37,826 nucleotides of DNA, from positions 1-37,826 of the forward strand of contig SKJG01000086.1 in NCBI GenBank assembly GCA_007116035.1, read 5' to 3'. Below, piece by piece: positions 3,257-37,826 of the stretch; within the stretch, counting starts at the first letter, position 1; each line of letters begins with the position of its first letter. The notes beneath the pieces were generated by a model. It made no database searches. It worked only from the letters and a program-made list of their open reading frames with translations, and was not told where the DNA came from. The DNA is from Thioalkalivibrio sp. Its GTDB lineage: Bacteria > Pseudomonadota > Gammaproteobacteria > Ectothiorhodospirales > Ectothiorhodospiraceae. Position numbers and translations under genes: made by a program.

Positions 3257-3311
3257 GCTCGGCACCCGGCGCCGGCAACGATGCCTCCATCGTCAATGAT
3301 CTTGGGCTGTC

Positions 3312-4241
3312 TCAAGATTGCAACTCTTCGTACAACCGCTCGACGTCCTCCGCACGGCACATCTCGGTGCCCTCGCTCAGCAATGCGGCGGCCCCGGCAG
3401 CCACGGCGTAGCGAGCTGCATCTTCCAACGGCTTCCCGTCGGCCAGACGAAGCACCAGGGCCGCCACGAAGCTGTCACCTGCGCCCACTGCGCTTCTCGC
3501 CTCCACCTCTGGCGCCCCAATGTCAAAGACACCATCGGCCGACGCGAACAGCGCCCCGTCACCGCCCAGGCTCAGCGCGACGACCTCGGAGCCACCGTCT
3601 TCAACGATCTTCCGTAGCACCGCTTCCTGTTCCTCCCTCGTGTCGAGGTCGGAGCCGGTCAGATCGCTCAACTCGCGGCGGTTGGGCTTGATCAGGAAGA
3701 CGCTCTCCTCCAGGGACGCTTCGAGGGCCGCTCCGGACGCATCGACCACGCATCGGGCCTCGGCCTGCTTCGCCAGACGGGCCACCCGTCCCGGGAAATC
3801 GTCCGGCACCCCCTGGGGCAGGCTGCCGCTGACCACAACATAGGCGCCTGCCGAGAGCCTTTCCTCGATCAGATCCAACGCGCCTCGCCACTCCTTCTCC
3901 CGCCACTCGGGACCCTCCAGCACGAAGCGGTATTCCTCGCCGGTCGAGTTCTCGGATACGTTCAGACTCTGGCGGGTGTTGCCCTCGATCGCAATCCGGG
4001 TTGCGCCGTCCAGTTCCGCTTCGAGCAGCCCTTGATACACCTCGCCGAGCGGGCCTCCCACGGCATACAGCGCCGTGGCCTTACCCCCCAGGCGCTGGAT
4101 CACACGAGCGACGTTCACGCCACCTCCACCGGGGTCGAAGCGAATCCCGGAGCAACGGAGCTTGTGTTTGCTGACCACCTTGTCCACTGACGTACTGACG
4201 TCGAGTGCCGGATTCATCGTGAGCGTGAGAATCGATGCCAT
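3312..4241 (-). CDS. pfkB: PfkB-family hexose-phosphate kinase (6-phosphofructokinase II / 1-phosphofructokinase type)
   Basis: Phosphorylates a sugar phosphate, most likely fructose-6-phosphate, in the cytoplasm. It has 309 residues, the same as E. coli Pfk-2. It carries the PfkB features: substrate region NPALDVSTSVD (10-20), the Gly-rich GGGGVNVARV (38-47), KPNRREL with Lys185 and Asn187 as in Pfk-2, and the anion hole plus catalytic base GAGDSF with Asp256. The start at 4241 is chosen because AGGAGG lies 7 bases upstream; an in-frame upstream ATG (4295) adds 18 unrelated residues. It leads a probable three-gene minus-strand unit with the DUF1028 and membrane protein genes. 1-phosphofructokinase or tagatose-6-phosphate kinase activity cannot be excluded from sequence alone. 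Confidence 0.85.
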   Translation of the reverse strand: MASILTLTMNPALDVSTSVDKVVSKHKLRCSGIRFDPGGGGVNVARVIQRLGGKATALYAVGGPLGEVYQGLLEAELDGATRIAIEGNTRQSLNVSENSTGEEYRFVLEGPEWREKEWRGALDLIEERLSAGAYVVVSGSLPQGVPDDFPGRVARLAKQAEARCVVDASGAALEASLEESVFLIKPNRRELSDLTGSDLDTREEQEAVLRKIVEDGGSEVVALSLGGDGALFASADGVFDIGAPEVEARSAVGAGDSFVAALVLRLADGKPLEDAARYAVAAGAAALLSEGTEMCRAEDVERLYEELQS

Positions 4242-4593
4242 TGCCTGCCCTCCTGAATTTCGTGGCGGGGACTGAAACCACTCGCTTGTATTCAAAGCGC
4301 CTGGCTAACTTAACCTATCCGGGGTATCGGATGCCCATGGGGGATTTCCGGACTGTAAAGGCCCCGAACCGGTGTGCTACCGTAAAAACCGCAGGAAGAG
4401 GGACTCGGCCGGCAAGCCGCCGCGCTCCGTTGGACTGCGGGGAGGCGCATCCCTACTGGCTGGAGTGCAGGGCTGAATATCGCGTGGCAACCTCAATGCA
4501 CGGGCGACACACTGCCCATTGCTGGACTGGCCCGTTTCACACGTACGCAAAACTGCGCAGCATCACGCTAACGGTTGATAAAAGGAGATGTTC
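4242..4593. other. Divergent intergenic region, no gene seen
   Basis: 352 bases between the divergently read pfkB and a small lipoprotein gene. It should hold promoters for both, but I find no clear sigma-70 pair, operator palindrome or RNA structure. The end contains the AAAGGAG ribosome site of the lipoprotein (4581-4587). Confidence 0.5.
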
Positions 4594-4833
4594 ATGAGTT
4601 CGATTCTGAAGCTATGGATTCCCATCGGTCTCGCCTCTCTGATCCTGCTCGTTGGGTGCTCGGATCCCGGTCCGGCGGAAGAGATCGGCGAAGAGGTCGA
4701 TGAGACCGTACAGGAAGCACAGGATGCGATCGATCCGCCGGGACCCGCCGAACGTGCCGGCCGGGCGGTCGATGACGCCATCGAGGATGCAGGCGAAGCG
4801 ATCGACGACGCCACCAACAACGACGACGATTGA
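4594..4833 (+). CDS. Small acidic lipoprotein
   Basis: A 79-residue protein starting MSSILKLWIPIGLASLILL followed by the lipobox LLVGC, so it is probably lipidated at Cys22. The mature part is very acidic and repeats an amphipathic pattern (EEIGEEVDETVQEAQDAID, then AGRAVDDAIEDAGEAIDDA), resembling short helical heptads, and ends NNDDD. AAGGAG lies 6 bases before ATG 4594; the ATG at 4588 overlaps that site and is a poor choice. It converges on the cusF-like gene. Similar small acidic lipoproteins are usually annotated hypothetical; no function is claimed. Confidence 0.72.
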   Translation: MSSILKLWIPIGLASLILLVGCSDPGPAEEIGEEVDETVQEAQDAIDPPGPAERAGRAVDDAIEDAGEAIDDATNNDDD

Positions 4834-4916
4834 GCGCTAGCCCGCCCTCGGCTTGGTCACATTTGCCGGGGGCGGGATCGCGGCGTCATCGTCTTCCTGC
4901 CCGCAACCCGCGGTTG

Positions 4917-5315
4917 TTATTGCTTCGGCTCCACCGATAGCACCGTGTAGGCCCCATCGATCTGGTCGAATGTGGCCAGAATCTCGTCTCCGACAGCAAG
5001 CCCTTCCAGCAGGCTTGGATCCGATACATGGAACACCATCGTCATCGGTGGCATGTCGAGGTTGGGAATCTCGTCGTGTCGAAGTGAGACGGTATTTGCA
5101 CGCATGTTGATGCGGCGAACCTCCGATTCCACCTTCGGCAGTCCTCCTTGAACCGGCCCGGAGCCCGATCCGTGCATGCCCTGGGCTTGGTCGTGATGCT
5201 GCATGCCATCGTTAGCGCCAGTACCATGATGATGACGCTCCTGTGCGTGGCCACTGTTCAGCGCGACAACGCCAAAGACGGCGAGTAGTGTGAGGTACGG
5301 TAACGTTCTCTTCAT
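4917..5315 (-). CDS. cusF: CusF-like periplasmic copper-binding protein
   Basis: A 132-residue exported protein that probably carries Cu(I) or Ag(I) in the periplasm. A signal peptide (MKRTLPYLTLLAVFGVVALNSGHA) is followed by a His/Met-rich linker (residues 26-50: HHH, HH, MH). A CusF beta-barrel domain covers residues 62-132. The metal ligands align by spacing with E. coli CusF: His80, Met91 and Met93 in IPNLDMPPMTM. The Trp that caps the copper in E. coli CusF corresponds to Met88 here. ATG 5315 is preceded by GGAGAG; an upstream in-frame ATG at 5438 would bury the signal peptide. It is the last gene of the copper group, 126 bases beyond the oxidase gene. Confidence 0.85.
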   Translation of the reverse strand: MKRTLPYLTLLAVFGVVALNSGHAQERHHHGTGANDGMQHHDQAQGMHGSGSGPVQGGLPKVESEVRRINMRANTVSLRHDEIPNLDMPPMTMVFHVSDPSLLEGLAVGDEILATFDQIDGAYTVLSVEPKQ

Positions 5316-5441
5316 GAGCAGGTCTCTCCGCTTGTCCTGGTGAAACTTTGCGTTATCGCCTCCGCGCCCGTTCCCTTTGATGGGTCGAATCGGCGCATCG
5401 GCGAGTAAGTCATGCGACTCCCACCCCTCCCTGTTCACCCG

Positions 5442-6848
5442 TCAGTGATTGTGCGCACCCGAAACCGGCTTGCGCACCCGCATCTCCAAAGCGGGACGGT
5501 TCAGATCGGGAACCTCGCCTTGATGCAGGCGCTCCGACGCAAAACGCTGTGGCTCCGGCAGGGACCCAGTCCATTCATAGGCCTGCGTTCCGGACGGCTG
5601 CTCGTACCAGCCGGGGTCGGAATAATCGCCGGGCTTCTGGTCGTGGCGCACCTTGAGCATGGTGAACATGCCGCCCATGCCGATCGCCCCGTGCGGCCCG
5701 AAGCCCGACATCATGGCAAGGGTCTCCTCCGGCAGCATCATCTGCATGTCTTTCATGTCGGCCATACCCCGCTCACCCATGACCATGTATTCCGGAACGA
5801 GATTCTGGATTCGCCCCACAAGACCCCGATGATCGACACCGATCATCGTCGGCACGTCGTGGCCCATGGGGTTCATCACGTGATGGCTCTTATGACAATG
5901 GAAGGCCCAGTCACCCTCGGAATCGGCGATGAATTCGATCTGGCGCATCTGGCCCACCGCGATGTCGGAGGTGACTTCCGGCCACCGGGAGCCGGGGGGA
6001 GTCGGCCCGCCATCGGTCCCGGTGACCTCGAACTCGTGGCCGTGCAGATGGATCGGGTGGTTGGTCATCGTGAGATTGCCAACCCGGATGCGCACCCGGT
6101 CGCCCAGGCGGACATTGAAGGAATCGATACCCGGAAACGCCCGACTGTTGAAAGTCCACAGGTTAAAATCGAGCATGGTGTTGATCTTCGGCACCACGCT
6201 GCCCGGGTCGATATCGTACGCATTCAACAGGAAGCAGAAATCACGTTCTGCCTCGTTGATCCACTCGTGTTTCTGGCGTGGGTGGGTCACCCAGAAGCCC
6301 ATCATCCCCATTGCCATCTGGACCATTTCATCGGCGTGCGGGTGATACATGAAGGTACCCGGACGACGCGCCACGAATTCGTAGACAAAGGTCTTGCCCA
6401 CCGGGATGGCTTTCTGATTCAGTCCAGCGACTCCATCCATGCCGTTTGGCAGACGCTGGCCGTGCCAGTGAATCGTGGTCGGTTCGGGCAGGCGGTTGGT
6501 CACGAACAAGCGCACCCGATCGCCTTCGACCACCTCGATGGTCGGACCCGGACTCTGGCCGTTATAACCCCAAAGTCTGGCGATCATTCCGGGAGCGATC
6601 TCGCGTTCTACCGGTTCCGCAACCAGATGGAATTCCTTCACGCCATTGTTCATGCGCCAGGGTGCGGTCCAGCCATTCAGCGTGACCACCGGGTGGTACG
6701 GGCGACCCTTGTCGGGCATGCGTGGTGGCGCGGTCTCCGGCGAGGTCACGATGGCGGGCTCGGGCAAGGCGGCCAGTGCCACCTTGCTGACCCCGGCCGC
6801 GGCCACGGCACCCAGTGCTGCTCCGCTAATGAAATCCCGTCGATTCAT
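5442..6848 (-). CDS. Tat-exported two-domain multicopper oxidase (copper resistance)
   Basis: Probably oxidises Cu(I) to Cu(II) in the periplasm, reducing O2 to water. It has 468 residues. A twin-arginine signal (NRRDFISGAALGAVAAAG) starts the protein. Cupredoxin domain 1 holds HWHG (127-129) and YHPH (169-171). Domain 2 holds HPIHLHGH (264-271) and AFHCHKSHH with Cys318, His323 and Met328, so all four copper-site motifs are present. With only two cupredoxin domains, the layout is like two-domain laccases, which work as trimers, rather than three-domain CopA or CueO. Residues 353-396 are Met-rich (VMGERGMADMKDMQMM), probably extra copper-binding sites. AGGAGG lies about 11 bases before ATG 6848. 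The start is 4 bases after the TolC-family stop codon, so the two are co-translated. Confidence 0.88.
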   Translation of the reverse strand: MNRRDFISGAALGAVAAAGVSKVALAALPEPAIVTSPETAPPRMPDKGRPYHPVVTLNGWTAPWRMNNGVKEFHLVAEPVEREIAPGMIARLWGYNGQSPGPTIEVVEGDRVRLFVTNRLPEPTTIHWHGQRLPNGMDGVAGLNQKAIPVGKTFVYEFVARRPGTFMYHPHADEMVQMAMGMMGFWVTHPRQKHEWINEAERDFCFLLNAYDIDPGSVVPKINTMLDFNLWTFNSRAFPGIDSFNVRLGDRVRIRVGNLTMTNHPIHLHGHEFEVTGTDGGPTPPGSRWPEVTSDIAVGQMRQIEFIADSEGDWAFHCHKSHHVMNPMGHDVPTMIGVDHRGLVGRIQNLVPEYMVMGERGMADMKDMQMMLPEETLAMMSGFGPHGAIGMGGMFTMLKVRHDQKPGDYSDPGWYEQPSGTQAYEWTGSLPEPQRFASERLHQGEVPDLNRPALEMRVRKPVSGAHNH

Positions 6849-6852
6849 GATC

Positions 6853-8166
6853 TTAATGCCCTCCTGCGGCAGATTTTCGGCCCGTGGCGACCGCGCCGGC
6901 ATCGGCTCCGGGATACTTTGCACCGGCGAGCACGGCCTGCAGATTCGCGTGCGCCAGCCAGAAGTCACGCCTCGCCTGCACGGCGGCATCGGCCCGTTCC
7001 ACCCGATCGCGTGCGCTGGCAAGCAGGTCCCAGGTACTTTTCAGCATGCCGTTGTAGCGCAGCAGCATGTCGTCCTGGAGCTCCACACTCAGGCGGTGGT
7101 TCTCTTCAGCCCGTTGCGCAATCTCGTATGCGACGCGGTACTGGTGGTAGGCCTCACGCACCTGGGAACGGATCCGGACCGCGAGTGCAGCCGCCTCGGC
7201 CTGAGCCTTGGCGGCCCGGGCCGCCTCGTGACCAGGGGGCAGACGGCGCTGTTCCAGCACAGGGGCCGATGTGATGAGTGGATCCATGGATCCGTCCTCG
7301 ACAGGCGCGGAATCAAGCGCGTCAGAAAGCGCCCTCTCAGCGGCATCGTTCCACATGTCCCCGGTCCTGGACGGCAGTCCCCGCAGGGCGCGTTCGGCCT
7401 CGATCGCCAGAAGAGAGAGCGTGGGATGGTTCTTCAGCGCTGCAGCCTCCAGCCCGTCCCCGTTTTGGGGCGTAGCGGGCAAACTTGGCAACTCGTTCGG
7501 CAGAAGCAACGCGCTGATATCACCCCACAGACCAAGCTTGCGAATCAGCGCTTCGCGTGCACTCGCTGCAGCCTGACGCGCCTGCGCAAGATCCATCCCC
7601 GCATCGGAGAGGCCCAGTTGTTGGCGCAGGAGGCGGTCCTGCCCCCAATTCCCGACCCGCGTCATGCGCAGGGCGAGTTCCGTCGCAATCTCGGAGGCCT
7701 CGAATGCCTCCTGTACACGACGCAGCCCCTCCTCGGCCGCAACCGCCTGGATCCATGTCCTGTGAACCTCACGGACAAACTCCAAAGCCGCGATATCGGC
7801 CCGCGCGCGCTCCAGCCTGCCCATGTTTTCGGTGGCAAAGAGATCCGGCCGGTTCGACAGCGCGATCCTTACGGCATCGGTCAGTGACAGCGGTTCGCCT
7901 TCCGGCGAGACCTGGGCGGCTGGAACGGGTGGGTTCTCGGCCTCCCATCGGATGATGTCGATGTGCCCCCGTGTGAAGGCGCCGACCGTGTCATTGGCGG
8001 ACCGCCAATCGTCCTCCCCCATTGAGGCCTCCGGCAACAGGGGCGCTGGCAGTGGCGCGAAGGCCGGTTCGGGGACGGCAACGGCAGGGTCATAGGGCTG
8101 GGTTCCGGCCGCCGACGACGGAACCAGGCCTGAGGCGAGAAGCAGAAGGATGGCAATTCGATGCAT
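6853..8166 (-). CDS. TolC-family outer membrane protein in the copper operon
   Basis: A 437-residue exported protein (signal peptide to about residue 20, cut near SSAAG) of the outer-membrane-factor family, CusC/TolC type. Long alpha-helical stretches appear twice: LSLTDAVRIALSNRPDL at the start of the first repeat, and the coiled region AARAAKAQAEAAALAVRIRSQVREAYHQYRVAYEIAQRAEEN in the second, here quoted in two parts by position (about 305-350). GGAGAA precedes ATG 8166. There is no CusA pump or CusB adaptor in the window, so it may serve a pump elsewhere or act only with the neighbouring CopCD and oxidase. It is slightly shorter than E. coli CusC and lacks a lipobox. Confidence 0.82.
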   Translation of the reverse strand: MHRIAILLLLASGLVPSSAAGTQPYDPAVAVPEPAFAPLPAPLLPEASMGEDDWRSANDTVGAFTRGHIDIIRWEAENPPVPAAQVSPEGEPLSLTDAVRIALSNRPDLFATENMGRLERARADIAALEFVREVHRTWIQAVAAEEGLRRVQEAFEASEIATELALRMTRVGNWGQDRLLRQQLGLSDAGMDLAQARQAAASAREALIRKLGLWGDISALLLPNELPSLPATPQNGDGLEAAALKNHPTLSLLAIEAERALRGLPSRTGDMWNDAAERALSDALDSAPVEDGSMDPLITSAPVLEQRRLPPGHEAARAAKAQAEAAALAVRIRSQVREAYHQYRVAYEIAQRAEENHRLSVELQDDMLLRYNGMLKSTWDLLASARDRVERADAAVQARRDFWLAHANLQAVLAGAKYPGADAGAVATGRKSAAGGH

Positions 8167-8193
8167 CTAGGCGGTTCTCCTTTCCGTTCGATC

Positions 8194-9099
8194 TCACCCG
8201 TTGGGCGAAGTCGTGGTTGTCATCAGCGCGGTTACAAAGAGAATCAGTAACACCAGAAGACCTTCGATCAGAATACTTCCGCGCAAGCGCCCCGCAGCAC
8301 TCGGATCTCCACGTTCGAAGGCGGGAACCAGTCGCCACTTGTTCAACGCGGCGATGGCCAGGAGGAAGAGGACCAGAGTGATCTTGATCAGCAGGGTCTG
8401 CCCGTAAACGCTCTCAAAAAGCGGTGCAACCCCTCCGACCAACAACCACGACAGTCCAACTGCAGCCGCCACCAGGAGGCCGACCGTCACCGATGCGGTC
8501 TTGCCAAAGCGCGCGAGAGCCCGCGCAGCGACCGCAGCCGGGATGGCCGCTCCGGCCAATCGGTACAATGGAATCAATGCGCCGACCCAGAAAGCCACGG
8601 CGGCAAGATGAACGAAGAGCAGCATCGCCAGGAGCCAGCGGGGCTCGTCCTTCGTATGTCCGACCTGTGTAAAGGCCAGGAGCACCAGGATCACCCCGAC
8701 CGCACTCAGCCCGAGCCCCAGATACCGCCAGCGTCCCAAGCCGATCAGAATCCCATGCAACAGGAGGAGCCCGCTCGCCGCGAGGATCATTCGGGTCCCC
8801 TGGGCGCTCTCGAAGACGATACCGAGAAGCATCGGGTCGAGAGCAGCGGCAAGGGTAGCCCCGCCCAGAAATCCTGCCTGTAACGGCCATTGCAGCAATA
8901 GCAGCCCGACGGCAAGCAATGCCGAAGCGACCACGAGTGGCCCAAGTCCGATCCGATCCCAATCCTGCTCCTCGGGAGATGTCAGCCTGAAGAGGACCCC
9001 ACCCACCGCGACCAGAGAACTCGCGTAGAAGCCCGCGGCCGCAAACACGATGAGCAGCATCCACGGATCCAGACCACTAAGGGCTGCCGGCCAGAACAT
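8194..9099 (-). CDS. copD: CopD-family copper resistance membrane protein
   Basis: Inner-membrane protein thought to pass copper between periplasm and cytoplasm together with CopC. It has 301 residues with about eight membrane segments. The second half matches the CopD domain: helix LLAMLLFVHLAAVAFWVGALIPLYRL with the conserved His and Trp pattern HxxxxxFWVGA, then ALARFGKTASVTVGLLV and TLLIKITLVLFLLAIAALNKWRLVPA, quoted here as landmarks near residues 145-275. ATG 9099 lies 3 bases after the copC stop, so the two are translationally coupled. Confidence 0.87.
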   Translation of the reverse strand: MFWPAALSGLDPWMLLIVFAAAGFYASSLVAVGGVLFRLTSPEEQDWDRIGLGPLVVASALLAVGLLLLQWPLQAGFLGGATLAAALDPMLLGIVFESAQGTRMILAASGLLLLHGILIGLGRWRYLGLGLSAVGVILVLLAFTQVGHTKDEPRWLLAMLLFVHLAAVAFWVGALIPLYRLAGAAIPAAVAARALARFGKTASVTVGLLVAAAVGLSWLLVGGVAPLFESVYGQTLLIKITLVLFLLAIAALNKWRLVPAFERGDPSAAGRLRGSILIEGLLVLLILFVTALMTTTTSPNG

Positions 9100-31067: not shown

Positions 31068-32615
31068 TTAGAGAATCCACTCGATGGGCAGCCAGCTCAG
31101 GAAGCGAACCATCGCGCGCTCCAGAGCGCTGGTGTTCGGTTCCGTGGTGTGGGTCGCGGTCTCGCCGGACGACTGAGTTTCAATCCACGCGAGCAACCCG
31201 TCCCCGGTCTGCACCACCTCGTAAACCGCCTCGCGCCCATCGAGCGTGCGGGCCAGTGCCTTTGCGATACCCGGGCTGTCGATAAGGAAACCCATCTCCG
31301 TGTTGAGCGAGGCCGACCGGGGGTCGAAGTTGAACGAACCGATGAAGACCCGTTCCCCGTCGACCGTGAAGGTCTTGGCGTGGAGGCTGGAAACCGAGCC
31401 CATCAGGATGTTCGTCAACGTGTCCGAGGCCGACGGTTCGGGACGGGCACGAAGTTCGAGGACCGTGACACCGGCCGCGATCAACTCATCGCGGTAGCGC
31501 ATCCATGCGCTGTGCACCGGCGGGACATCGGTGGCCTCGAGGGAATTCGTCACCACCCGGACGGCGAGTCCATCACGAGCGTAGCCCTGGAGGAGATCGG
31601 TGCCGACCCTGCCGGGGATCAGGTAGGCCGAGACGAGATCGACGCTGCGTTCGGGTGACTCCAGGAGGCCCGGCATCTGGCCGACGAGAAGGTCGGTCTT
31701 TTCAGCCTGGCCAAGACCCTTCGCGGGATCGTCGCTGACGAGCGTCACCGTCGTCCATTCGAGGGCTGCTTCGCCCGCGAGCGCGCGCCGCAACAGCGGT
31801 GATTCACCGATGGCGGCGAGGTAATCTGACCCGCGCACGCTGCCGCGGGCGCACGTGGCGGCGGCGGCCAGTTCGGCGAGCCCGGTGTGCGAGGGCGGCA
31901 GGACCACCTGCGCCGGGTAGGCCGAGGCACTGGCCCAGTAGCGGTCGAAATCGACCGACACGTCTTCGGCCGCGGTCCCCACGGCCAGCACGTCGAGATC
32001 AAAGTATGCGGTACCGTCGCCGTAGGCAAAGTAGATGTCGCCGATGTTGCGCCCACCGATCACCGTGGCAATACCGTCCACGGTCATCGACTTGTTGTGC
32101 ATCCGGCGGTTGAGGCGTGGAAAGTCGAATGCGTAGGACAGAAGCTTCGGCCTGCGCATCGTGAAGGGATTGAAGATGCGGACCTCGACGGTCGCCAGCG
32201 CGTCCATTGCCGCGAGCACGCTGTCGAGGCCGGGGATGCCGTTGTCGTCTAGAAGGAGCCGCACGCGCACACCCCGCTCGGCCGCGGCCCGCAGTTCCTC
32301 CAGCAGCAGCCAGCCCGTGGTGTCGGTCTGCCAGATGTAATACTGCACGTCGATGGTCTCTTCCGCTGCGCGGGACATCAGGACGCGGGCAGCGAGCGCG
32401 TCGCGCCCGTCGGGAAGGGGGACGATGCCGCTGAGCCCCGGGTTCTCCGCCGCCCGCGGCAGGAGGGCGCGGCCAAGTGCGGTGTCGGGACTGGCCGGGA
32501 TCGCGACGCTGGGCGGTTCCGTCGGCAGGGGTGGCAGGGGGTGTGCAAGCCGCAGACCCAAGATCGCGACGCTCCCCAAAACAAGAAGAGCCAGGACCAC
32601 CTTGAGAAATCGCAC
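31068..32615 (-). CDS. Cardiolipin synthase-like phospholipase D protein (ClsC/YmdC type)
   Basis: A 515-residue membrane-anchored protein (helix FLKVVLALLVLGSVAILGL at the N-terminus). Two PLD motifs are intact: MHNKSMTVDG followed by IGGRNIGDIYF, and LHAKTFTVDGERVFIGSFNF followed by DPRSASLNTEMG. This pairing resembles ClsC, which makes cardiolipin from phosphatidylglycerol and phosphatidylethanolamine. The start is GTG 32615 with AAGGAGG 9 bases upstream; the frame is open to 32876 without likeness. ymdB, the usual ClsC partner, is not present. Divergent from the DUF4332 gene. The gap 32616-32904 has no gene. Confidence 0.87.
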   Translation of the reverse strand: MRFLKVVLALLVLGSVAILGLRLAHPLPPLPTEPPSVAIPASPDTALGRALLPRAAENPGLSGIVPLPDGRDALAARVLMSRAAEETIDVQYYIWQTDTTGWLLLEELRAAAERGVRVRLLLDDNGIPGLDSVLAAMDALATVEVRIFNPFTMRRPKLLSYAFDFPRLNRRMHNKSMTVDGIATVIGGRNIGDIYFAYGDGTAYFDLDVLAVGTAAEDVSVDFDRYWASASAYPAQVVLPPSHTGLAELAAAATCARGSVRGSDYLAAIGESPLLRRALAGEAALEWTTVTLVSDDPAKGLGQAEKTDLLVGQMPGLLESPERSVDLVSAYLIPGRVGTDLLQGYARDGLAVRVVTNSLEATDVPPVHSAWMRYRDELIAAGVTVLELRARPEPSASDTLTNILMGSVSSLHAKTFTVDGERVFIGSFNFDPRSASLNTEMGFLIDSPGIAKALARTLDGREAVYEVVQTGDGLLAWIETQSSGETATHTTEPNTSALERAMVRFLSWLPIEWIL

Positions 32616-32904
32616 GTCACCCCTCCTTCCCCTTCCGTCCGGAAGGGCTTCGACTGAACCCGCGGAAGTATACGGGGGACGCGCGGGAATTTCGTGCCGA
32701 CGCAGTGGATCCTTGCATTGCCTGTGGCCGCACGACCCTATCGCCATCAAAAGGTAAACGCCGGAACCGCTGCGCTCCGGTACCCCTTTGCACTGATCGC
32801 GCTGGCGCCGCAACTGGCGACAGTGTGATGAAACGGTTGCAAAATGCACGTTTCCCTCACATTCTCTATCGCGCACAATGTGTGCTCGAAAGGGAAATGC
32901 GCAA

Positions 32905-33312
32905 ATGAACTACAAGATCGAAGAAATCGAAGGCATCGGCAAGGCAAGGGCTGACAAGCTGGCGAAGGCCGGGATCAAGACGACGGGCGATCTGCTCGCC
33001 CAGGCGGCTTCGGCCAGGGGAAGAAGAGTGGTGGCCGAACAATGCGGCGTCAGCCCCGTGCGCCTGCTCAAGTGGGTGAACATGGCGGACCTTATGCGCA
33101 TCTCGGGCGTCGGGGAGGAGTACTCAGAGTTGCTGGAGGCCGCCAACTGCAACACCATCAAGCAGCTCCGGCGGCGCAACCCCACAAACCTGACCCAGCG
33201 CATGCTGGAAATCAACGCGGAGAAGAAGCTGGTTCGCTCGCCCCCGTCGGAAGCCCAGGTCACAAAGTGGGTGCAACAGGCCGGCAAACTCGAACCGATG
33301 CTGACCTACTGA
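32905..33312 (+). CDS. DUF4332-type helix-hairpin-helix protein
   Basis: A 135-residue soluble protein. IEEIEGIGKARADKLAKAGI and MADLMRISGVGEEYSELLEA, given as landmarks, are two helix-hairpin-helix repeats, like the ends of DNA polymerase or PolB-type DNA-binding domains; DUF4332 proteins share this pattern. The tail EAQVTKWVQQAGKLEPMLTY is Lys-rich. It may bind DNA, but no enzyme is attached. ATG 32905 is preceded by AAAGGGAA. Its end is followed by a strong hairpin at 33318-33362. Confidence 0.8.
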   Translation: MNYKIEEIEGIGKARADKLAKAGIKTTGDLLAQAASARGRRVVAEQCGVSPVRLLKWVNMADLMRISGVGEEYSELLEAANCNTIKQLRRRNPTNLTQRMLEINAEKKLVRSPPSEAQVTKWVQQAGKLEPMLTY

Positions 33313-33362: not shown

Positions 33363-33882
33363 GAATCCACACGGCTGAGACTGACGCGAAATATCCGCTT
33401 CCGCCTGACCAGCCCGCAACCAAGGAAGCGCTGAATAAAGCCCTCCTGGCTTTCTCGGCGCAAGATGCACTTTTTCGACTTGTTTCCCGTTTCCAGTATC
33501 GTACCCTGAGCGTATAACGTCCCTGTCATGAGCGGGTCAGTCCCTTTGGAATTCTTCCAAAGCAATCTGCATCTCAGAGCGAAACACGACCGCCCAGAAA
33601 TGGTCCAAAATGATGCTTCACGGACGAATGATGCTTCAGAAAAGAAAGCAACCTCCCGGCGGCCGTTATTCAAAATGCTGGGCTCGGAAACCGCATCATT
33701 GCCCTTGCTGCGATTGGTGATGACCAGCGCGGACGCGATACCGGCGACCAAGGCTCTGAATGCAGCGGTCGACCTTGCCGCCTGACCCGGACGGGTCGTA
33801 GCCTTTCTTCGGTGGAAAAGGCTTCTTCGGGCTTGAAAACGGGCCGACGAGACCATCGCATTGCGCAAACGCAGGGGGCGCC
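33363..33882. other. 520-base stretch of lower GC without a supported gene; possible IS remnant
   Basis: The stretch 33420-33660 is lower in GC than its neighbours. It contains AAGGAAGCGCTGAATAA (33423-33439), which resembles sequence at the ends of some insertion sequences; a third, degenerate copy of TGCACTTTT(T)CGACT (33466) related to repeats at 28899 and 36545; and ATGATGCTTCA twice (33610, 33628). An open frame at 33528-33785 (85 residues) has no ribosome site or known likeness. It reads as debris of an inserted element rather than a gene. Confidence 0.4.
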
Positions 33883-35742
33883 GTGAGAGTCTTGCAGGAT
33901 GTCTTTGCGAGCTATCGCGCCTCGCTGCAGTTTCTCGCACCGTTCACCCTGATTCATCTGTCGGTCCGCCTGCTGGCGGCGGCGGTGATCGTGCCGGTGT
34001 CGGGTGTCGTGCTGGCCGCGGTCCTCGCGGCATCCGGCCAGAACGTGATCACCGACCAGGAGATCGCGCGATTCCTGCTGACACCGGCCGGGTTCGCCGG
34101 AGCGCTGGCGCTGATCAGCCTGTCGATCGTGGCCAGCGTCCTCGATGTCGCCGTGATGACCGACACCCTGCGCCGACAAGAGCACAGGGTGTCGCAGGCG
34201 TTGCTTTCGGGGTTCGCGCTCTTTCTCGGGCGGTTCGCCGGGCTGTTCGCCTTCGCGGTGCAGCTCGTGCTGCGCGTTCTGCTGATCGCTGCGCCATTCC
34301 TTCTGGTCGGCGCAGCGATCGCGTGGCTGGCGCTCGGCCGCTACGACATCAACTATTACCTGACCTACCGGCCGCCGGCCTTCCTTGCTGCCGCGGGGAT
34401 CGGCGCTGCGCTGCTGGCGGGGCTCGCCGTCGTCCTCGTGGCGCGGTTGTCGAGCTGGGCCATCGCCCTGCACCTGTTCCTGGTCGGAAACGTGCCGCCG
34501 CGACGGAGCTTCGCCGAAAGCGCGCGCCGGCTGCAGGGACAACGGATGCAGGTCGTTGGGCGGATCGTGATGTGGGCCCTTCTGCGCAGCCTGCTGTTCG
34601 TGCTGGTCGCCAGTATCGCCGCGCTGCTGGTCAGCGGAGCACAACAGCTCTTCGGGGCGAACCTTCGCGTGCTGGCGTTTTCGATCGTCGCACTGCTGCT
34701 TCTCTGGGGGCTTGCGAACGCCGTGGTATCCGCCTTTGCCAACGGCGCGCTCGCATCGCTGCTCGAACGGCTCTACCGTGAGGCGACGGGGGATATGCCG
34801 GAGCGCCCTCCGATCTTCGCCGGACGTCCCCTGGTGGTCGGGGCGCTTCCGGTTTCGCTTCTGCTCGGCGGCGTTGCGGTCGCACTGGGCGGGGGCCTCT
34901 ACCTGGGTGGCAGCCTGGCCGAACGCGTCAGCGCCGAACGCGAGGTCGAGATCATCGCCCATCGTGGCGCATCCGTGGCATGGCCCGAGAACACCATGGC
35001 CGCCTTCGAGCAGGCCCTGGTGGAAGGCGCAGACTGGATCGAGCTCGACGTGCAGGAGACCGCCGATGGCGAGATCGTGGTCGCCCACGACAGCGATTTC
35101 ATGAAGATGGCCGGGGTCGATCTGAAAATGTGGGACGCCACGATGGCCGATCTGGCCGAGATCGACATCGGCAGTTGGTTCGACCCCGCCTATGCCGGCG
35201 AGCGCACGCCAACCCTGCGCGAAGTCCTGCTCGCCGCCAAAGGCCGCGGCAAGGTCCTGATCGAGCTGAAATACTACGGTCGCGACGTCGCGCTCGAACC
35301 CCGTGTCGTGGAAATCGTCGAGGAAACGGGGATGTCGGCGGATGTCGCCGTCATGTCGCTCAAGATCGAGGGCGTGCGGAAGATCCAGGCGCTGCGGCCC
35401 GACTGGACCCACGGGATCCTGGCGGCCACCGCGGTCGGCGATCTTGCCGCCCTCGATGCCGACTTCCTGGCGGTCAACACCGGGCAGGTCTCTCTGGACC
35501 TGATCCGGCGGACCCACGCGCAGGGCAGGAAGCTGTACGTCTGGACGGTCAACGACCCGGTCACGATGGTGCGCCTGATCTCGATGGGTGTCGACGGACT
35601 GATCACCGATGAGCCGGCACTGGCTCGCCAGGTGATGGAGGCGCGCAACCAGTTGTCCGCGCCGGAACGCCTGCTCCTCTGGGCAAGCGACCGGTTCCGG
35701 CTGAAGAGCTTCGATCTCGTGGCGGAGGAAGCTGATGCCTGA
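33883..35742 (+). CDS. Membrane glycerophosphodiester phosphodiesterase
   Basis: Hydrolyses glycerophosphodiesters (deacylated phospholipids) to glycerol-3-phosphate and an alcohol. It has 619 residues. An N-terminal region with about eight to ten membrane helices (residues 15-345) resembles the GPDPase_memb domain. A catalytic GDPD domain (about 352-600) follows, with IIAHRGASVAWPENTMAAF (catalytic His), DWIELDVQETADGEIVVAHD (metal-binding Glu/Asp and second His), TPTLREVL and VLIELKYYG, as landmarks. The catalytic part probably faces outward. GTG 33883 follows AGGGGG. Its stop overlaps the PLA2-like gene by 8 bases, so the two are translationally coupled. Confidence 0.9.
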   Translation: MRVLQDVFASYRASLQFLAPFTLIHLSVRLLAAAVIVPVSGVVLAAVLAASGQNVITDQEIARFLLTPAGFAGALALISLSIVASVLDVAVMTDTLRRQEHRVSQALLSGFALFLGRFAGLFAFAVQLVLRVLLIAAPFLLVGAAIAWLALGRYDINYYLTYRPPAFLAAAGIGAALLAGLAVVLVARLSSWAIALHLFLVGNVPPRRSFAESARRLQGQRMQVVGRIVMWALLRSLLFVLVASIAALLVSGAQQLFGANLRVLAFSIVALLLLWGLANAVVSAFANGALASLLERLYREATGDMPERPPIFAGRPLVVGALPVSLLLGGVAVALGGGLYLGGSLAERVSAEREVEIIAHRGASVAWPENTMAAFEQALVEGADWIELDVQETADGEIVVAHDSDFMKMAGVDLKMWDATMADLAEIDIGSWFDPAYAGERTPTLREVLLAAKGRGKVLIELKYYGRDVALEPRVVEIVEETGMSADVAVMSLKIEGVRKIQALRPDWTHGILAATAVGDLAALDADFLAVNTGQVSLDLIRRTHAQGRKLYVWTVNDPVTMVRLISMGVDGLITDEPALARQVMEARNQLSAPERLLLWASDRFRLKSFDLVAEEADA

Positions 35743-36325
35743 GCACCGGGAAAAGGCCTTCGCTCTGTTGCTGGGGCTTTGCATCGCCGCCATCGCCCCG
35801 GCAAGCGCGCCCGCAGAGCCGGAACCCGGGGAATCCTTCGCAATGCGCCTTTCCATCGAGATGGCGGCACATCGCCGTCTTGTCGAGGTCATGGACAGGA
35901 CCGGGCATGCCCCCGCCGCCTTCGTCACTGATGGCTGCAGCGGCGGGCTGTCGATGGCCTGGGACCTGGTCGCGGATCTCCTGCCGGCCTTCGCCGAAAC
36001 CCACGAGAAGCACCCGCCCTGGGAAGCCTGCTGCGTAACCCATGACCGGGCGTATCACGCCGCGGGCGGTGCACGCGCCGCCGAAGAGAGCTACCGCACG
36101 CGGTTCACGGCCGACCAGGCTCTGCGGGAGTGCGTACTCGACACCGGCGCACGCCGAACACAATACCTGTCCGAAAGCTATGGCCTGACCGAACGGCAGA
36201 TCGCGGGCGCCTACCGATTGATCGCCGATGCCATGTTCGATGCGGTGCGGCTGGGCGGCGGACCCTGCAACGGCATGCCATGGCGCTGGGGTTACGGCTA
36301 TCCGGGTTGCCTGCTCGGCAGATGA
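35735..36325 (+). CDS. Secreted phospholipase A2-like protein
   Basis: A 196-residue exported protein (signal peptide to about residue 27). The core has DGCSGG (66-71, the calcium-loop position) and CCVTHDRAYHAAGG (99-112). The His103-Asp104 pair and Tyr107 match the HD-x-x-Y catalytic helix of phospholipase A2. The classic CCxxHxxC pattern has Ala where the last Cys would be. Six Cys in the mature part (68, 99, 100, 133, 178, 192) could form three disulfides. Its start overlaps the end of the GDPD gene, with GGAGGAAGCTG before ATG 35735. PLA-type deacylation followed by GDPD cleavage would release glycerol-3-phosphate. Activity itself is inferred; related bacterial proteins are mostly uncharacterised. 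Confidence 0.72.
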   Translation: MPEHREKAFALLLGLCIAAIAPASAPAEPEPGESFAMRLSIEMAAHRRLVEVMDRTGHAPAAFVTDGCSGGLSMAWDLVADLLPAFAETHEKHPPWEACCVTHDRAYHAAGGARAAEESYRTRFTADQALRECVLDTGARRTQYLSESYGLTERQIAGAYRLIADAMFDAVRLGGGPCNGMPWRWGYGYPGCLLGR

Positions 36326-36841: not shown

Positions 36842-37042
36842 ATGATTCGAAACACCCCACTGGCTACAGTGCCCTTTGTGTTCCGAGGACTTGTCCACAC
36901 CGTAAGGGCTGATATGCCACCGCGATTTGCAGGCCCCGGCGTGGAGACGCAGACCGGGCAGGCGGTCTATCAGCTGCCGCGCGACCATGCCTCGCACGGT
37001 GGCGCGAGAGCCCAAGCCGAAACCGGAACCCGAAAAATCTGA
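36842..37042 (+). pseudogene. Truncated duplicate of the downstream CrtC/AttH-like gene
   Basis: A 66-codon frame with a good ribosome site (GAGGAG, 7 bases before ATG 36842). Residues 25-54 (DMPPRFAGPGVETQTG and QAVYQLPRDHASHGG) match residues 47-75 of the next gene (DMPPLQGPGIETESA, QAVYSLPRDHAWHGG), but the frame then leaves the family (ARAQAETGTRKI) and stops. The first 24 residues differ from the Tat signal of the downstream gene. It reads as a broken paralogue, perhaps left by duplication and deletion, still potentially translated. Confidence 0.65.
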
Positions 37043-37179: not shown

Positions 37180-37826
37180 ATGGATCGCAGAGTTCTGCTT
37201 AAACTGCTCGCCTCGGGAACTGCGCTTACGGCCGCACCGGCCACCCTTTTGGCACAGATGAAGAGCGAAAAGCCGTCATGGGCCGCTGTGCCTGCTGGAC
37301 AAGCTTCCGCCACAGATATGCCGCCGCTGCAAGGTCCCGGGATTGAGACGGAGTCCGCCCAGGCCGTCTACAGTCTGCCGCGCGACCACGCCTGGCATGG
37401 TGGCAAGTTCTACCAGACCAATGACTTCAACGAGTGGCACTACATCACGGTTCTCGGTCGTGACCTCGACACCGGCGAGCGCATCTCGGTGTTCTGGGTG
37501 CCGCTCAGCCAGGGCTGGATTGCCAGGGAGGGTCGGCCGCTGCATAACGTACTGTTTGCCTTTCACAATCTCGATACGGGCGAGTTTCACACGGCGCTTC
37601 TTTACATCACCGGGCCGATGACCACCGAAGGCTCGGCGCCGGACGCGGAGGACTTCCACTTCCGCTACGAGATCGACGACGGCAAGAGCGCCTTCACAAC
37701 CGCCTACGACCACGCCACCGAGACGTGGGAATTCGGTGGGTATACCACCGAGAAGGACGACTGGAACGAACCGTTCCGGCTGTCGATGACGTCGCAGGCC
37801 CAGGCACCGGGCTATGTGCCCATGGC
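37180..37826 (+). CDS. Tat-exported CrtC/AttH lipocalin-like protein (incomplete at right edge)
   Basis: A frame of 215 codons running off the right edge. The N-terminus MDRRVLLKLLASGTALTAAP is a twin-arginine-type signal. FYQTNDFNEWHYITVLGRDL matches the start of the hydroxyneurosporene synthase (CrtC)/AttH lipocalin-like domain, whose members act on hydrophobic compounds. The remaining ~100 residues (LHNVLFAFHNLDTGEFHTAL to FHFRYEIDDGKSAFTTAYDH) continue the beta-rich pattern. GGAG lies 9 bases before ATG 37180. Because the C-terminal half is missing, the choice between carotenoid hydratase-like and AttH-like function cannot be made. A truncated duplicate precedes it. Confidence 0.75.
   Translation, partial: MDRRVLLKLLASGTALTAAPATLLAQMKSEKPSWAAVPAGQASATDMPPLQGPGIETESAQAVYSLPRDHAWHGGKFYQTNDFNEWHYITVLGRDLDTGERISVFWVPLSQGWIAREGRPLHNVLFAFHNLDTGEFHTALLYITGPMTTEGSAPDAEDFHFRYEIDDGKSAFTTAYDHATETWEFGGYTTEKDDWNEPFRLSMTSQAQAPGYVPM

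Follow-up and report, generated by a model that had tools for sequence, protein, structure and literature searches.

A contig from a 3.03-Mb Thioalkalivibrio sp. genome (GenBank assembly GCA_007116035.1; SKJG01000086.1, its contig 103), analysed over its whole 37,826 nucleotides and referred to here as the window, carries two overlapping genes on the forward strand. The first encodes a 619-residue membrane glycerophosphodiester phosphodiesterase (GDPD) and the second a 196-residue exported protein resembling phospholipase A2 (PLA2), which we label PLA2L. The two genes travel together across many bacteria and therefore probably form a small unit for dismantling or recycling membrane lipids. We favour, with moderate confidence, the interpretation that they are a co-inherited two-gene module that takes phospholipids apart in the periplasm. 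The computational results behind this interpretation are the conserved pairing, the kinship of PLA2L to PLA2 through a bridging family, the intact presumed active sites, the GDPD fold and a predicted topology. The chemistry is known and the PLA2 family is unnamed; the open-access literature searched yielded no account of a PLA2-GDPD pair of genes or of this conserved partnership.

Conservation of the GDPD-PLA2L gene pair

The GDPD gene (33883-35742, GTG start) and the PLA2L gene (35735-36325, ATG start) share the eight bases ATGCCTGA (35735-35742), exactly as an original prediction made from this sequence had described, and an overlap of the same length recurs in loci L010-L015. Within the end of the GDPD gene, six bases ahead of the PLA2L ATG, the sequence reads GGAGG (35724-35728), the likely ribosome-binding site of PLA2L. 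Translational coupling of the genes is likely. As PLA2L has this GGAGG of its own and the overlap shows coupling at most, it does not follow that the proteins are made in equal measure, and that part of the prediction is not upheld.

A scan of GTDB contigs for PLA2L relatives returned 258 stretches encoding them, and the best 80 were kept for locus analysis. These were ranked by likeness to the window, so the sample leans towards pairs. A tblastn search of the 80 loci, which span Alphaproteobacteria, Gammaproteobacteria and Thermodesulfobacteriota, placed a GDPD gene directly upstream of PLA2L in 62; two of the remaining 18 (L076 and L085) stop at a contig edge. The two genes overlap in 51 of the 62 paired loci when starts are picked by homology. 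When the start nearest the GDPD stop is taken instead, a rule that favours short gaps, 46 of 60 overlap and the other 14 lie within 33 bases; this second count leaves out L036 and L082, where GDPD is disrupted or partial. The L036 locus (about 4132-5903), from Ruegeria intermedia, has a GDPD gene broken across two frames beside an open PLA2L gene, either by decay or by sequencing error.

A less biased sample was provided by 198 Rhodobacteraceae genomes, one per genus. At thresholds of E <=1e-20 for PLA2L and E <=1e-60 for GDPD, 21 genomes carried PLA2L, 19 carried GDPD, 16 carried both and 174 neither (Fisher p 1.3e-16, a value inflated by shared ancestry). In all 16 genomes with both, the genes are neighbours on the same strand and their matched stretches lie no more than 142 nt apart. 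Together with the 62 upstream loci, this co-occurrence and adjacency rule out chance neighbours, and the earlier view that the two genes belong together is borne out by this search across genomes. Within Thioalkalivibrio, PLA2L was detected in five of 30 genomes and GDPD adjoins it in all five; the long GDPD is present in six, and in genome G017 it is seen as fragments at contig ends only. PLA2L is a real gene, because it occurs in these five genomes and in the 258 relative-encoding stretches and shows a ratio of nonsynonymous to synonymous substitution (dN/dS) of 0.21-0.33 when compared with six orthologs. For GDPD the ratio is 0.25-0.27 (four comparisons), and the coding sequences thus indicate purifying selection on both genes of the pair. 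A long antisense open reading frame (ORF) at 33670-35928 had no Pfam match and was attributed to high GC.

Several counts weigh against a fixed unit. The sixth genus genome, G015, has GDPD with no PLA2L after it. PLA2L stands alone in 5 of the 21 Rhodobacteraceae that carry it, and GDPD in 3 of 19, so that pairing is not obligate there. In a phylum sample of 398 genomes, 15 had PLA2L matches, six strong (G000, G160, G207, G461, G480 and G482) and nine weak; GDPD exceeded 800 bits in three genomes (G000, G160 and G354), two genomes had both genes, and four of the six strong PLA2L matches lacked a strong GDPD. Nine more GDPDs, at 228-367 bits, were found in genomes of the window's class that have no strong PLA2L match. 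The association is strong, not obligate, and each family is wider than the pair. In G015, the sequence ATGCCTGAGC behind the lone GDPD is identical to the opening ten bases of PLA2L and was considered as a PLA2L fossil; the GDPD end dictates eight of these ten, so the match does not count as evidence of a lost PLA2L. By eye, the genes downstream of lone GDPDs in L155-L157 look Gfo/Idh-like, UbiB-like and flagellar, with no other phospholipase in that place.

The history of the pair was followed in a quick tree of 81 PLA2Ls, in which 36 of 78 inner branches are open. The solo state is scattered over this tree, and the pair label needs 11 changes, against a shuffled value of 16.7 (none of 500 shuffles reached so few). 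The closest named relative among the best 80 of the 258 is PLA2L of the Thioalkalivibrio metagenome-assembled genome (MAG) LCM1.Bin42, 97% identical. The window protein and four other Thioalkalivibrio PLA2Ls group with those of a Chromatiaceae MAG and Rhodovulum (support 99), and this group lies within an otherwise alphaproteobacterial set. The GDPDs of L010, L013, L014 and L015 keep the PLA2L order, at 93, 82, 71 and 66% identity. This position within the alphaproteobacterial set and the matching order of the GDPDs suggest that the pair was transferred as a unit. PLA2L and GDPD distances correlate over 55 loci (r 0.84), as expected for any linked pair. The pair is also found on plasmids, namely Rhodobacteraceae SC52, Paracoccaceae La 6 and D. 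shibae pDSHI05, the last carrying GDPD and a 'hypothetical protein' with a 4-base overlap.

Relationship of PLA2L to phospholipases A2

PLA2L begins with a probable signal peptide (residues 1-28, 35735-35818), called from its hydrophobic stretch (residues 9-27). The presumed calcium loop, DGCSGG, spans residues 66-71 (35930-35947), and the presumed catalytic His103-Asp104 helix, WEACCVTHDRAY, is encoded at 36020-36055. In an alignment of 80 PLA2L homologs (A2), DGCSG, which fits DxC[ST], and CC..HD..Y are present in all 80 sequences, and six Cys are invariant. Asp127 (36113-36115), invariant in alignments A1 and A2, is presumed by analogy with group XIV PLA2s to be the second Asp of a putative His-Asp dyad. 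The classic signature of group I/II secreted PLA2s is CCxxHxxC. PLA2L instead reads C99-C100-x-x-H103-D104-x-x-Y107, with Ala106 where the last Cys would be, so that the prediction was right in listing DGCSGG and HD-x-x-Y as kept and that Cys as missing.

The connection to PLA2 comes mainly through shorter relatives of about 130-155 residues (one of eight aligned has 100), which read DGCS-x-FPDG ... CC..HD.AYWQGG ... RWGYGWPY. They match the A2 profile with E 6.9e-31 and a probability of 99.85. In one genome, G410, the same frame of a short relative is matched both by A2 (E 2.3e-6) and by the prokaryotic PLA2 family PF09056 (E 0.0023). When seven short relatives were compared with Pfam, PF09056 was best in four (E 7.7e-4, 0.0024, 0.099 and 0.16), PF00068 was best in one (E 0.14) and two had no PLA2 match; all these matches are below cut-off, PF09056 reaching at most 20.5 of 29.4 bits. 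A profile of the short relatives matched 11 PDB sequences at E <=10, of which the first ten are PLA2s (E 0.42-1.8) and the eleventh a protease. The ten include 8k1w, 4aup and eight further sequences that, judging by their entries, are presumably variants of one mammalian enzyme. In the alignment of the short relative L009 with 8k1w (E 1.3), DGCS falls on DGCS and C..HD..Y on C..HD..Y. Compared with these shorter proteins, PLA2L has three insertions, of roughly 14, 7 and 21 residues, and the first of them separates the DGCS loop from the CC..HD helix.

Proteobacteria thus have a second PLA2-like family, formed by shorter proteins (L103, 1195-1662; also L009, L101, L105, L107, L108 and L109), and no Pfam model matches it above its cut-off. 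The phage family phrog_6098, of unknown function, matches four of four proteins tried (E 7e-12 for L009 to 9e-6). The phage tail assembly chaperone family phrog_1158 likewise matches four of four (PLA2L, L009, L062 and L064; E 2e-5 to 0.03).

The structure of PLA2L residues 33-196, modelled by AlphaFold2 (AF2) with pLDDT 88.8 and pTM 0.84, was compared with known folds by running VIA-align on Foldseek's 1000 candidates, with Z 8 as the level of trust. Rank 1 is the Tuber borchii PLA2 4aup (Z 6.3 over 98 residues, root-mean-square deviation (rmsd) 5.6, 24% identity), and ranks 4-6 are the PLA2s 8k1w, 1faz and 7ygk (Z 5.5-5.6). Group XIV secreted PLA2s (PF09056; 1faz from S. violaceoruber and 4aup) thus lead the list, with Z 5.5-6.3, below 8.

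Against PLA2 kinship stand a number of database results. The window PLA2L has no Pfam or NCBIfam match. The commonest Pfam match of the 80 homologs is PLA2G12, in four (best E 0.0063, below cut-off), PF09056 is unlisted at E 0.1 for any of them, and the A2 profile finds no match in the PDB. In Foldseek the best PDB match of the model has E 0.61, with no PLA2 in the 50 rows listed. All PLA2s in VIA-align remain below Z 8, alongside unrelated chains at 5.4-5.9. The top BFVD match is a phage 'Phospholipase A2 domain protein', in favour of kinship, but it is not significant (E 0.33, prob 0.92). In other searches, PLA2L sequence matches in the PDB to TAL-effector repeats (E from 2.4e-7, although no one stretch reached significance) and to ribosomal L32 (E about 0.7) were read as artefacts, and a phage collection gave no PLA2L match. 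PF09056 itself passes its cut-off in one of the 398 phylum-sample genomes and one of 14 controls, and was not found in the window's genome.

Each line that links PLA2L to PLA2 is weak alone, and jointly they point in one direction; PLA2 kinship is therefore favoured, and the best evidence is the bridge through the short relatives. On the strength of this bridge and the conserved residues, PLA2L very probably belongs to the PLA2 superfamily, in agreement with the identity first proposed, and hydrolytic activity is likely. The DGCS loop, the C-x-x-H-D-x-x-Y helix and the predicted export are shared with group XIV PLA2s, from which PLA2L differs by its insertions, by falling short of the PF09056 score and by the Asn of the YxN motif, present in 11 of the 80 homologs. 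The suggestion that PLA2L is a separate bacterial branch stands in that neither Pfam nor NCBIfam has a model for its family. Lack of the last Cys is no mark of such a branch, because the solved bacterial PLA2 8k1w, which we take to be a group XIV enzyme, reads C-x-x-H-D-F-G-Y and likewise lacks it. PMC11525133 describes TtaP (DUF1353, PF07087) as a PLA2 class of 2024, distantly related to group XIV, with a His-Asp dyad and without an overt signal sequence or the disulphide Cys of group XIV. On that description TtaP and PLA2L would both be distant group XIV relatives with a His-Asp dyad, putative in PLA2L; however, PF07087 is not among the matches of PLA2L, the A2 members or the short relatives. 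The Tox-PLA2 signature of polymorphic toxins, DxC[ST] and CxxHxxxYxN in PMC3482391, is incomplete in PLA2L, as the window protein lacks the Asn. If the assignment is true, a bacterial family for which Pfam and NCBIfam have no model joins the PLA2 superfamily, and a 'hypothetical' protein of marine and alkaliphilic bacteria gains a testable enzymatic role.

Topology of the GDPD and the proposed pathway

GDPD matches PF03009 with E 2.3e-41 and 143 bits against a cut-off of 23.6. In its AF2 model (pLDDT 84.5), a TIM barrel at residues 356-590 (34948-35652) matches 2pz0 over 233 residues (Z 32.9, rmsd 1.4). The HRG, ENT, E-x-D and HD motifs are intact, and the catalytic residues H360, R361, G362, E369, N370, E387, D389, H402 and D403 are invariant in an alignment of 56 GDPD sequences (A3). 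This barrel is common to GlpQ/UgpQ and to GDPDs with a PF10110 membrane domain. The N-terminal helices are weakly PF10110-like (23.1 bits over residues 21-278, short of the cut-off of 29.6), and the UgpQ model PRK09454 gives 104 of 264 bits; the window GDPD differs further in that it frequently has a PLA2L partner gene.

Ahead of the barrel the model has seven helices, 18-50, 68-98, 103-150, 165-191, 218-257, 261-302 and 324-350, predicted to cross the membrane (33934-34932). With seven helices, mean net loop charges over the 56 sequences are +2.6, +0.7, +3.9 and +0.8 inside and -1.7, -0.4, -0.1 and -2.0 outside. This alternation is as expected and places the N-terminus inside and the barrel, by prediction, in the periplasm if seven helices are right, which supports the earlier proposal that GDPD acts outside the inner membrane. 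The membrane domain holds nine invariant residues, including D155, I156, N157 and Y159 of a DINYY motif (34345-34359) at the predicted periplasmic face, and these seem to be more than a plain anchor should need.

In the proposed pathway, exported PLA2L, as a His-Asp calcium-type PLA2 relative, would take an acyl chain off phospholipids at the periplasmic side. The seven-helix GDPD, with its barrel in the periplasm, would then cut the headgroup bond of the deacylated product, giving sn-glycerol-3-phosphate (or lysophosphatidic acid if one chain is left) and the headgroup alcohol for uptake or re-use. From the results above we infer the enzymatic activity, the order of the steps, complete deacylation and a physiological purpose, which may be lipid turnover or the salvage of phosphorus and headgroups. 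Transport genes near the pair fit glycerol-3-phosphate as the product. At L054 (Fluviibacterium), a LysR-like gene separates the pair from curated UgpB and UgpA genes that diverge from it. In L072 (a Desulfobulbaceae MAG), positions 3298-8984 hold PLA2L, another GDPD gene immediately behind the pair and a ugpBAEC set in convergent orientation. Plasmid CP049029 has ugp genes near the pair, and its UgpB shares 99% identity with the L054 protein. For the La 6 plasmid, the ATPase scores above the UgpC cut-off (447 of 432 bits), whereas the permease compared with UgpE does not qualify (91 of 297). Overall, ugp genes lie near the pair in 2 of 62 loci against a rough expectation of 0.19 (p 0.017, for a comparison chosen post hoc).

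Further points speak against this pathway. Hydropathy alone gives eight membrane segments, splitting in two the helix 103-150 that AF2 models as one, and a count of eight would make the barrel cytoplasmic. A UgpB search, run with no positive control, found no match in the window's genome. Finally, PLA2 removes one acyl chain and leaves one on its product, and GlpQ-like GDPDs use fully deacylated glycerophosphodiesters. With a GlpQ-like barrel, the second deacylation would therefore have to come from elsewhere, or GDPD would have to accept lysolipids; PLA2L may remove both chains, another lipase may help, or GDPD may take lysolipids.

The last of these options leads to an alternative, lysophospholipid recycling, which we consider unlikely. 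PLA2L would make 1-acyl lysophospholipids and GDPD would act as a lysophospholipase D, yielding lysophosphatidic acid for re-acylation, like S. aureus LpgD. This scheme closes the one-chain gap, and the nine invariant membrane-domain residues, which appear to exceed the need of a mere anchor, speak for it. A membrane-tethered enzyme of the GDPD family with such activity is known: PMC10404611 describes LpgD as a GDPD-fold lysophospholipase D acting on lysophosphatidylglycerol, in which a 17-residue alpha6 and a long L7 form a hydrophobic lipid groove, whereas alpha6 of SaGlpQ has 8 residues. Both LpgD and the window GDPD are membrane-tethered, and the LpgD structure 8ghh matches the GDPD barrel with Z 25.7. 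However, LpgD has one helix and the window GDPD seven predicted ones, the LpgD model NF053857 scores GDPD at 44 bits against a cut-off of 450, and the long alpha6 and L7 are not seen in the predicted model. By our own strand numbering on that model, which is provisional, a nine-residue helix (538-546) takes the place of alpha6 and a four-residue loop (555-558) that of L7. The barrel thus looks GlpQ-like, as in SaGlpQ; the membrane domain could still hold the lipid.

It is improbable that PLA2L has lost catalysis or has another role, such as binding lipid or serving as a structural partner to feed GDPD. The likeness of its fold to solved PLA2s is weak, the three insertions relative to the short relatives are in keeping with such a role, and we know of no activity for any member of the PLA2L family. 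Against this, the loop Asp, His103, Asp104, Tyr107 and Asp127 are all invariant in A2, as catalysis predicts. That PLA2L is an exported antibacterial effector-like enzyme, with GDPD as a linked lipid-repair or self-protection partner, is very improbable: PLA2 domains do occur in polymorphic toxins (PMC3482391) and the pair also sits on plasmids, but PLA2L consists of one small domain that follows a signal-like stretch, its partner has intact enzyme residues and also occurs alone, and the toxin-signature Asn is confined to just the 11 homologs noted above.

For the preferred periplasmic dismantling module, a bolder form is conceivable and in our view doubtful. It would be a dedicated machine of the envelope, made of a new PLA2 family and a seven-helix GDPD whose membrane domain holds or presents lipid through the invariant DINYY face, so that phospholipids would be converted to glycerol-3-phosphate and free headgroup wholly outside the cytoplasm, the two genes moving between classes and phyla as one cassette. 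If the module is real, a two-gene unit, each step of which is open to direct assay, joins the known means of phospholipid breakdown in Gram-negative envelopes. Membrane GDPDs, about whose role little is understood, would gain a partner as well.

Neighbouring genes and other features of the window

Near the pair, the window encodes a phospholipase D-like protein on the reverse strand (31068-32876; PLDc_2, two stretches) and a DUF4332 helix-hairpin-helix protein (32902-33312, E 1.7e-39). Neither gene had a tblastn match at E 1e-6 in L001-L089, with flanks of up to 6 kb, and as they are unmatched beside other pairs they were kept out of the module. ORF clustering over L010-L089 gave no third conserved gene, since the largest cluster beyond GDPD and PLA2L, the known families with 51 and 49 loci, covered 17; this clustering was crude and, as it included antisense frames, is weak evidence. 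A promoter scan found no promoter-like site and Rfam gave no match. Downstream of the pair, 36931-37003 and 37332-37404 form a 73-base direct repeat, 78% identical. By eye, the second copy lies within a frame that seems to open with a signal-like stretch at about 37181 and continues past the end of the window, and the first copy looks like a decayed copy of the 5' part of that frame.

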